Shown here: piece by piece, positions 43,077 through 46,021 of the stretch
How positions within the stretch are numbered: the first letter of the stretch is position 1
Layout: each line of letters begins with the position of its first letter
NCBI GenBank assembly: GCA_002355455.1
Contig: AP017375.1
Location: 372,001-436,000, forward strand
Length of the DNA stretch: 64,000 nt
Reading direction: 5' to 3'
Origin: Stanieria sp. NIES-3757
Lineage (GTDB): Bacteria; Cyanobacteriota; Cyanobacteriia; Cyanobacteriales; Xenococcaceae
The notes under the pieces: model-generated
Told to the model about the DNA's origin: nothing
The model's input: only the letters and a program-made list of their open reading frames with translations
Database searches by the model: none
Translations under genes and position numbers: made by a program

Positions 43077-44579
43077 GTGAAGACGTGGTTACTGAAAACG
43101 CTTAGTGATATTTTCAATCGCTATCAAAAGATCGAGGAAAATTCTTTGACGATTGAGTCTTCTCTGACAGTAACCAGTCAGCAGTTAGAGCAAAATTTCA
43201 ACGAACAAAGAAAATTAGCCGAATTAAAAGCACAGAGAGAATGGTTTGGCGCGATCGCAACTGTAGAAAAAATTCTTTTATCTAGACTAAAAAATAATAA
43301 TTGTCTGAATCAAGCAGAACAAGGATTAATTTTTTCTGCCCCTGTGCCAATTTTAAGTAACGTAGCTCTTGTTTCTCACTTTCATACAGGAGTGTTTACG
43401 CCTGATGCTTTTAATCCTAAAGCATTGATGCCTTGTGCAGTTGAGACAGAAGTAGAACCAACTCCTGAACATTGCTCCATTTTAGAATTGCCCTTACTCC
43501 CCAAAGATCCCATCGCTTTAGAACAATTTTGTCTGATTTTGACTGACGAGTTTGGGTTAGTCATGGTGTTAGGAGAAGACGAACAAGGTTTTCCTGCCTT
43601 TCATTTTTCCTTTGAACCTGAAATAATTCAACTGACTTGGGCAACCTTGCGATCGCGATTAGTCCTGGCTAATTATCATCAATTATCAAAATTAGACCGT
43701 TTAGTTCGGCAATTTGACCCACCAATTCCTGATTATCGTTTAGTTAGTCATTTTAGCCGTCAATTACTCAAACATTTACCCGATCTAACCGCTTTAGCGA
43801 TTAGTAAAACCAAACCAAGCGAAACGGTTACTCATCCTGAAGCCGAAGTAGTCGAATACAGAACTAACTTTTCTACTCCTACCGTCAGTAGTCAGTTAGA
43901 AATGGACTTGCTACAAGCTCTTACCCACGAAATTCGGACTCCTCTGACTACCATTCGTACCTTGACTAGACTGTTGCTGAAAAGAAAAAAAGATTTTCAA
44001 CCTAATGTAATTCAGCGTCTACAAACAATCGATCAAGAATGTACGGCACAAATCGAAAGAATGGAATTAATTTTCCGTGCAGCAGAATTAGAAGCGACTC
44101 CTCCTGCTAACAAACCAGTTAATTTAGTAGCTTTTTCTCTCGAGCAAATCTTCCAACAAACTATTCCTCGTTGGCAACAAGAAGCACAAAAACGGAATGT
44201 TGAGTTAGAAGTAACCCTACCCAAAAAATTACCGAACATTGTTAGCGATCCTGCTATGCTTGACCGAGTTTTAACAGGATTGGTAGAGAATTGTACTCGC
44301 AATTTACCTACAGGCGGACAAGTTCATGTCAAAGTTTCAACTGTCGGGAATCAACTCAAATTGCAAGTCTTGTCTCAAGCTAGTCTTTCAAGTAATCCGC
44401 TCAAATCTCTCGGTCAATTATTGATGTTTCAACCTGAAACTGGATGTTTAAGCTTGAATTTGGATGTAACTAAGAATATTTTTCAAGCTTTAGGTGGAAA
44501 ATTTACGGTTAGACAAAGACCAAAACAAGGAGAAGAATTAACAATTTTCCTACCTTTAGGAAGTTCTGGTTCAGTTTAA
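43077..44579 (+). CDS. Histidine kinase-like protein with H-box but degenerate ATP site
   Basis: 500 aa. The N-terminal ~280 residues are an unassigned sensor region. The DHp helix has a normal phospho-acceptor: 'LQALTHEIRTPLTTIRTLTR'. In the ATPase part the N-box Asn survives ('LTGLVENCTRNLPTGG'), but no DxGxG (G1) can be found and the G2 loop reads 'TGCLSLNL' instead of GxGxGL. ATP binding is therefore doubtful. The start is GTG with AGGAGG ten bases upstream. It converges with another kinase, 41 bases away, that shows the opposite defect. No membrane segment. Confidence 0.85.
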   Translation: MKTWLLKTLSDIFNRYQKIEENSLTIESSLTVTSQQLEQNFNEQRKLAELKAQREWFGAIATVEKILLSRLKNNNCLNQAEQGLIFSAPVPILSNVALVSHFHTGVFTPDAFNPKALMPCAVETEVEPTPEHCSILELPLLPKDPIALEQFCLILTDEFGLVMVLGEDEQGFPAFHFSFEPEIIQLTWATLRSRLVLANYHQLSKLDRLVRQFDPPIPDYRLVSHFSRQLLKHLPDLTALAISKTKPSETVTHPEAEVVEYRTNFSTPTVSSQLEMDLLQALTHEIRTPLTTIRTLTRLLLKRKKDFQPNVIQRLQTIDQECTAQIERMELIFRAAELEATPPANKPVNLVAFSLEQIFQQTIPRWQQEAQKRNVELEVTLPKKLPNIVSDPAMLDRVLTGLVENCTRNLPTGGQVHVKVSTVGNQLKLQVLSQASLSSNPLKSLGQLLMFQPETGCLSLNLDVTKNIFQALGGKFTVRQRPKQGEELTIFLPLGSSGSV

Positions 44580-44620
44580 AGTAATTATTTGTTTTTAATT
44601 TCTAATTATTTTTTTTTGAT

Positions 44621-46021
44621 TTAAGCATCAGTTAACTCAGCTAAAGTAATTGGTAACAATACTTTAAATACCGAACCTTTTCCTACTTTGCTACTTACTG
44701 CAATTGAACCACCACATTTCTGTGCTAGTTGTTGAACAATAGTTAAACCTAAACCTGCGCCTGCAACGTGTTCGTTTTCAGTACTTCTAATTCGATAAAA
44801 ACTATCAAAAATTTTGGTTAATTCTTGAGGATCTATTCCTATACCCGTATCGCTTACAGCTAGTTCAACAAATTCATTATTTATTGTCGCTTGGACAAAA
44901 ACTTTACCTTGAGCAGGAGTAAATTGAAGACTATTATTAAGTAAATGAATAATGATTTGCCTAAGCCAAGAACTAGGACAAGCCACAGGAGGTAAATTAC
45001 TAGGAATAGTATATCCTAATAAAATTTGTTTTTCCTGAGCTAATGGTTGATAGGTACTTACTATTCCTGGAACTAAATCTTCTAGTCTAACTGAGTCAAC
45101 CTCAAAAGGAATTTCTAATTGTAATAATTCCAGTAAACCAGAAATCAAAGAATTTTGGCGATCGCATTCGTAATCAAGTATTTCTAAATAACGTTGGCGT
45201 TGCTCTCCTTTGATTTGTTTTGATTCTAGTAAACTTAAAGCAGTTTTCATCCGAGTAATGGGCGAGCGTAATTCTCGGACTAATTTATTAAGAAATTCCG
45301 ATTGTACTTCTACAAACTGAGCAAAACTATTAGTTTTACTTTGATTATTAGCTAAAGCATTCAGTGAATTTTGTAAGGTTTCAGTATATTCAATCTGTTT
45401 ACGTAATAAATCAGTAATTAATTGAGTTTCTTCTGGATTTTCACTAGAAATATCATTAAGGTCTGGTAAAATTGTTTGACTTGACTCAGATTCAAAAATT
45501 AATTGATTGAGTTCAGTAATCACAGTTTTAATTAAACTTGATTCAAAACTTAAAACTGCTTTTAAGTAAGGTTGTTGTACTCTTTTATTAGTTAATTCTG
45601 TTGAAATTTTTGCTTTTTGCCATTGAGCTAAAATCAAACAAGATAATTGGGGAGAAACTACAATCAGAAAAGATTCTTTTTTGAGCAAAGAATTATTAAC
45701 AATTTTGATTGGTGTAATTTTAGTTGTCAATTGACTCTCAGGCAATAAAAAAGCTGGATGATTTTTTTGGTTTCCATACCAATAAATATGTTTAATATTA
45801 TCTTGTTGTAAATACTTTTCTATTTCGCCCAACCAAGTTTTAGTCTGAGGTAATTTAAGCCAGATTTCTGTTGAGATTTGTCTTTCTTTTAAAAGCTCAA
45901 GAGTTAAAGTTAAATAAGATTGAAAAATGTTCGGACTGATTAGTAATTCTTGCCAGGAATTAGAAGTTTGTTGAACTAGTTGATAAACGGATAATCCGTG
46001 GACAGTAGAAAAAGAACTCAT
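44621..46021 (-). CDS. Histidine kinase-like protein with intact ATP site but no phospho-His
   Basis: 466 aa. The N-terminal ~220 residues are an unassigned, possibly DICT-like, sensor region. At the H-box the sequence is 'FLNKLVRELRSPITRMKTAL': Arg replaces the His of HELRTPL. The ATPase domain looks complete: N-box 'IIIHLLNNSLQFTP', G1 'VSDTGIGIDPQE', F-box 'FDSFYR', G2 'GAGLGLTIVQQLAQKCGG'. It can plausibly bind ATP but cannot autophosphorylate in the usual way. It is tail-to-tail with the kinase that keeps its His but lost the ATP motifs. Confidence 0.87.
   Translation of the reverse strand: MSSFSTVHGLSVYQLVQQTSNSWQELLISPNIFQSYLTLTLELLKERQISTEIWLKLPQTKTWLGEIEKYLQQDNIKHIYWYGNQKNHPAFLLPESQLTTKITPIKIVNNSLLKKESFLIVVSPQLSCLILAQWQKAKISTELTNKRVQQPYLKAVLSFESSLIKTVITELNQLIFESESSQTILPDLNDISSENPEETQLITDLLRKQIEYTETLQNSLNALANNQSKTNSFAQFVEVQSEFLNKLVRELRSPITRMKTALSLLESKQIKGEQRQRYLEILDYECDRQNSLISGLLELLQLEIPFEVDSVRLEDLVPGIVSTYQPLAQEKQILLGYTIPSNLPPVACPSSWLRQIIIHLLNNSLQFTPAQGKVFVQATINNEFVELAVSDTGIGIDPQELTKIFDSFYRIRSTENEHVAGAGLGLTIVQQLAQKCGGSIAVSSKVGKGSVFKVLLPITLAELTDA

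Follow-up and report, generated by a model that had tools for sequence, protein, structure and literature searches.

A conserved cyanobacterial pseudo-histidine kinase and its occasional ATP-competent neighbour: a possible split kinase of the HisKA type

Can two histidine kinases that each lack what the other keeps act together? The question is raised by two convergent genes of Stanieria sp. NIES-3757, located in a 64,000-nucleotide stretch of DNA (contig AP017375.1, positions 372,001 to 436,000; hereafter the window). The initial annotation, made from the letters alone, described the products (here P1 and P2) as kinases with complementary defects and suggested that they form a split kinase. 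Upon re-reading the sequence, the coordinates and strands of both open reading frames, their tail-to-tail layout and the 41-bp gap were found to be correct (Table 1). The motif readings were confirmed as well: P1 has the acceptor His in THEIRTPL, lacks a DxGxG at the place of the G1 box and reads TGCLSLNL at G2, and P2 has an Arg in VRELRSPI together with DTGIGI, FDSFYR and GAGLGL. The complete set of a HisKA autokinase (the His plus the N, G1, F and G2 boxes) is present in neither protein; P1 is without G1 and G2, P2 without the His. Pfam labels P1 as HisKA plus HATPase_c, the latter barely over the threshold (27.0 bits for PF02518, with a cut-off of 26.4). No Hpt or CheA domain was detected in either protein (Pfam, E ≤ 0.1). 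The DICT domain of P2 and the probable DICT-like N-terminus of P1 had been missed in the initial annotation.

Table 1. Features of the convergent gene pair, in positions of the window.
Feature	Position	Strand	Remarks
P1, pseudo-histidine kinase	43077..44579	+	500 aa; GTG start; DICT-like N-terminus (probable), DHp with His, degenerate CA
P1 N-terminal region, probably DICT-like	43077..43865	+	strongest profile match ~residues 131-195
P1 DHp (HisKA, residues 277-331)	43905..44069	+	PF00512, 4e-8
P1 His284 codon	43926-43928	+	in THEIRTPL
P1 degenerate CA domain (residues 391-494)	44247..44558	+	PF02518 marginal
P1 altered G2, PETGCLSLNL	near 44433-44462	+	PxTGxxxL in 123/123
Gap, 41 bp, separating the two convergent stops	44580..44620	.	
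P2, DICT-domain histidine kinase without acceptor His	44621..46021	-	466 aa
P2 DICT sensory domain (residues 10-133)	45623..45994	-	PF10069, 4.1e-17
P2 DHp (HisKA, residues 240-302)	45116..45304	-	PF00512, 4.8e-9
P2 Arg249 replacing His	45275-45277	-	CGA codon, in VRELRSPI
P2 intact CA/ATPase domain (residues 351-458)	44648..44971	-	PF02518, 9.9e-25

Within the host genome, His occupies the acceptor column in 80 of the 82 HisKA matches. Only P2 and one further match depart from this, and of these two P2 alone has a downstream DxGxG. The other (L442, G000:C1:3516800-3517900; match 3517024) has Gln in TQELRTPL and no downstream DxGxG. A downstream DxGxG is absent by pattern from 12 of the 82 stretches, P1 included, some of the 12 being short or carrying a variant of the motif; a missing G1 alone is therefore less rare than a missing His (12/82 vs 2/82). 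Another DICT-domain protein of the same genome (L378; G000:C1, ~2006628-2008583) has an ordinary kinase core with its His, HELRTPL, and may be an intact counterpart of P1 and P2 as far as layout goes.

P1 was found in 184 of 386 genomes of the phylum (E ≤ 1e-25), that is, in nearly every genome of its own class and, at this threshold, in none outside the class. Two genomes of the class, both from one genus (G085 and G241; f23), are listed without P1; their best matches (L171-L174, L177) are ordinary kinase cores with a best E of 1e-14, and P1 has either been lost there or diverged too far. The P1 alignment comprised 123 sequences extracted from the 184 genomes, P1 from two of the 46 genomes that bear P2 being left out. 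Every one of the 123 keeps the acceptor His and the Thr of HExxT, and 121 keep the Glu after the His (the other two have S and G). None has a DxGxG in the G1 register. The N-box Asn column holds N in 54/123 and R, K or other residues elsewhere, and G2 is replaced by a conserved PxTGxxxL, the four fixed letters of which occur in all 123. A pattern search of the P1 tails returned one DxGxG and two GxGxG strings, all of which fall in the variable loop that follows the G1 strand. The CA fold is confident in an AlphaFold model (mean pLDDT 86). Given the near-invariant motifs, the altered but conserved G2 and this fold, the ATP site of P1 was lost long ago and the CA domain is still under selection.

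P2 is rarer, being present in 46 of the 386 genomes (E ≤ 1e-45). A profile of its N-terminus alone retrieved the same 46 genomes, followed by a gap from 3e-39 to a single match at 8e-7. Ten sequences from further named records (the best 10 of 80 loci, the others matching the kinase core or lying outside the examination) brought the set to 56, which represent about 54 genomes, since L300/G185 and L301/G215 are probably identical records. The acceptor position holds Q in 42, R in 11, E in 2 and H in 1, so that His is absent from 55/56; with the probable duplicates removed, the counts are Q 40, R 11, E 2 and H 1. Q, R and E do not look like substitute acceptors. DivL-like pseudo-kinases are marked by a fixed Tyr instead of the acceptor His, which was found in none of the 56 sequences. 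The Glu after the acceptor position, the N-box Asn, the three G1 letters, both F-box Phe and two G2 glycines are kept in 56/56, and the first G2 glycine in 55/56. No relatives of P2 were seen among 10 stretches of viral contigs from a pattern search. The complementary defects are thus ancient and nearly invariant (P1, n = 123; P2, n = 56). A sequencing error at the His codon, which the initial annotation had named as a way to be wrong, is excluded by the absence of His from 55 of the 56 P2 sequences, and the 123 P1 and 56 P2 sequences likewise exclude local decay.

The sole P2 with a His (G167, L089:1489-2913) has a CAC codon and a full ATPase, and it is the one member that keeps both features, a finding which, according to the initial annotation, would count against a split. 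Four other sampled members of this genus have Q at the acceptor position; a one-base return is therefore likely, an old state being the alternative. Apart from P2 of G167, P1 and P2 follow the motif pattern of a split kinase, one protein having the His without the ATP site and the other the reverse. Besides the acceptor, the Thr position of the P2 DHp domain is relaxed (T in 34/56). This position is the one with the phosphatase role. It is also named, as HE/DxxN/T, in PMC3591291.

The two proteins appear to share their layout. PF10069 (DICT) matched all 18 P2 N-termini scanned. It weakly matched 6 of 61 P1 N-termini at E ≤ 0.1 (best 0.0082), with no match at E ≤ 0.1 in the N-terminus of the P1 from the window. 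When the N-termini of P1 and P2 were compared as profiles (hhalign), the probability was 95% and the E-value 4e-8. Based on this comparison and the weak PF10069 matches, P1 probably consists of a DICT-like, a DHp and a CA domain, in the same order as P2. With full-length P1, a weak DICT match was obtained (residues 331-373, E 0.037); it falls at the end of the DHp domain and was taken as chance. The top matches of P1 in a structure library, among them RetS-GacS and DivL chains, cover the kinase core only, and the N-terminus is without a fold match among them. P2 is absent from the 20 profile matches of P1 in its own genome, and the two kinase cores show no special similarity. Sister paralogy was set aside, as the core gives it no support and the common DICT-like layout does no more than hint at it. 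PfsR/slr1414 as a Synechocystis homologue was dropped when literature searches gave no link.

What could such a pair do? The sequences themselves show the motifs, their conservation, co-occurrence and synteny. From what is known of such families, we infer that P1, having lost the usual ATP site, would be no autokinase, and that, as a dimer with HExxT in its DHp domain, it would transfer phosphate to or from a response regulator, remove it, or both, carrying phosphate on the His. On the same grounds, P2 would sense through its DICT domain and bind ATP without having an acceptor of its own. Where both exist, P2 would phosphorylate the P1 His in trans; we propose this because it is the simplest use of both complementary defects. 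P1 thus probably carries or removes phosphate, and P2 may supply it. Our leading reading, held tentatively and with somewhat less than even confidence, is that P1 is an ancient core cyanobacterial pseudo-kinase and P2 an optional ATP-competent partner, which, where present, would most likely act on the P1 His in trans. In genomes without P2, P1 would have another phosphate source or be mainly a phosphatase.

The distribution of the two genes bears on the partnership. A check set beforehand asked whether the two occur together and remain neighbours, and it came out mixed. P2 is always accompanied by P1 (46/46 P2-bearing genomes), but since almost every genome of the class has P1, this association carries little weight. 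P2 is missing from 138 of the 184 genomes with P1; the mutual genomic dependence expected of an obligate pair is not seen, and the split kinase suggested at the outset survives only in a non-obligate form. The genes lie within 15 kb of one another in 20 of 46 genomes (19 within 3.3 kb), always tail to tail; these 20 convergent pairs come from eight families, with one outside the order (G027). Of the remaining pairs, 12 are farther apart on one contig and 14 are on different contigs. The murE gene adjoins P2 in 27/46, more often than P1 and P2 are close, and after this control adjacency was dropped as proof of partnership. The old block seems to have been P1(+), P2(-), murE(-) and a glutaredoxin-like gene(-). 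In three of the eight P2-less loci examined, murE directly follows P1, a clean loss of P2. Among the ten named P2 loci, some of whose flanks end with the contig, two have P1 in the flank and five have murE there. Across 25 genomes, the partial r of the distances was 0.59 for P1 and P2 given MurE, and 0.64 for P1 and MurE given P2; covariation was rejected as evidence for partnership, since P1-P2 does no better than P1-MurE. Neighbourhood and covariation therefore fail to single out P1 and P2 as a pair.

These results also fit a stand-alone P1, a phosphotransferase or phosphatase receiving its phosphate from hybrid kinases or from phosphorylated regulators, to which P2 would be unrelated and its closeness to P1 a relic of the old block. 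The anatomy of a pseudo-kinase phosphotransferase, a DHp domain with its His and a degenerate ATPase domain, is found in all 123 extracted P1 sequences, and PMC9981736 and PMC5898713 describe ChpT, Spo0B and PhyT/PhyP in the same terms. The anatomy of P1 is that of ChpT, Spo0B and PhyT; those systems are from other phyla, and P1 differs by its probably DICT-like N-terminus. The many genomes with P1 alone, the frequent P2-murE adjacency and the unspecific covariation all favour a P1 that acts without P2, and the Glu-His pair of P1 is kept in 77 of 79 sampled P2-less genomes. This reading leaves the conserved loss of the acceptor in P2, beside a conserved ATPase, without an explanation, and we regard the stand-alone P1 as somewhat unlikely.

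In four small genomes of one family (1.6-2.3 Mb), the examination covered 23 of the 28 HATPase matches, all but L199, L200, L201, L204 and L205. None of the 18 HisKA-type kinases among these matches lacks the His, which again fits a stand-alone P1, and P1 itself is absent from the HATPase matches of the four genomes. The 1.6-1.7 Mb genomes, presumably Prochlorococcus, have four kinases plus P1; for Prochlorococcus MED4, PMC2663038 reports five sensor histidine kinases. Short DHp alignments favoured a specificity shared by P1 and the HQLRNP kinase in three of the four small genomes, by margins too weak to retain the idea. In this family, P1 usually belongs to a cluster that runs along one strand as Mrp-like ATPase, RodA, P1, PsaD, anthranilate synthase I (L276-L283, L287-L289, L275), and in most of these loci the RodA frame overlaps or abuts P1. 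No P1 was called in L290. Cell-wall genes thus occur on both sides of the comparison, RodA beside P1 here and murE beside P2 elsewhere.

Alternatively, P2 might regulate another, complete kinase, with mixed dimers switching or inhibiting it and ATP serving as a ligand. RetS-GacS and DivL-CckA, presented in PMC12189002 as kinase-like proteins acting through a second kinase, are precedents; RetS and DivL work through complete kinases, whereas P1 and P2 are both incomplete. The loss of the acceptor with retention of the nucleotide site in 56/56, and the relaxed Thr, agree with such a role. However, no complete kinase is a constant neighbour in the loci examined, and we consider this regulatory role for P2 quite unlikely. 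That both genes are decaying kinases without function is barely credible: a catalytic element is missing from both and most P1 genomes have no P2, but the frames are long and intact, and the motifs stay near-invariant throughout a class that includes genomes as small as 1.6-1.9 Mb.

EnvZ proteins mutated at the His and at the ATP site complement each other. Split EnvZ constructs, treated in PMC3591291, place a HisKA acceptor and an ATPase on separate chains that work together; these and the complementing mutants are laboratory-made, not a natural pair like P1/P2. The same text describes CheA3/CheA4 of Rhodobacter sphaeroides as a biochemically shown split kinase in which the carrier is also a phosphatase, reports modelling that predicts switch-like responses from such a carrier, and counts HisKA proteins without HATPase but with HE/DxxN/T as split-kinase candidates (PMC3591291). 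As in CheA3/CheA4, the acceptor His and the ATPase of P1/P2 are on two proteins, and HExxT would allow P1 to be a phosphatase. Unlike the CheA-class proteins, P1 and P2 are of the HisKA class, are known from sequence, and each retain the full DHp-CA layout with one dead part. Hik36-Hik43 of Synechocystis, according to PMC7656254, is a cheA homologue divided over two genes of a chemotaxis-type cluster; it resembles P1/P2 in being a split kinase of a cyanobacterium, if P1/P2 is one, and differs in being of the CheA type. P1/P2 share logic with these known systems and match none in every feature tested. Searches of a library of openly licensed literature, which mostly excludes subscription journals, listed no account of the pair.

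For trans-phosphorylation of P1 by P2 we count the His and Thr of P1 (123/123), the ATPase residues of P2 (56/56), the occurrence of P2 only with P1, the G027 pair outside the order and the similar layout; against it, P1 alone in 138/184 genomes, the murE adjacency, the flanks (2/10), the covariation, the absence of P2 from the 20 matches of P1 and the His of G167. The two may constitute a naturally occurring split kinase of the HisKA type that receives two sensory inputs, with P1 as near-universal carrier/phosphatase and P2 as a dispensable added kinase module providing the kinase input; we hold this with real reserve. If true, it would carry over to HisKA proteins an arrangement known for CheA.

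In the cyanobacterial sample, P1 ranks among the kinase-like proteins kept most widely (184/386), and Pfam alone would call it a kinase. That it persists in kinase-poor genomes of 1.6-1.9 Mb suggests that it is hard to lose. Should P1 be unable to use ATP, the wiring diagrams drawn for cyanobacterial two-component signalling would have a core node wrong, and a "histidine kinase" that is among the few conserved in the smallest phototrophs would be no autokinase.
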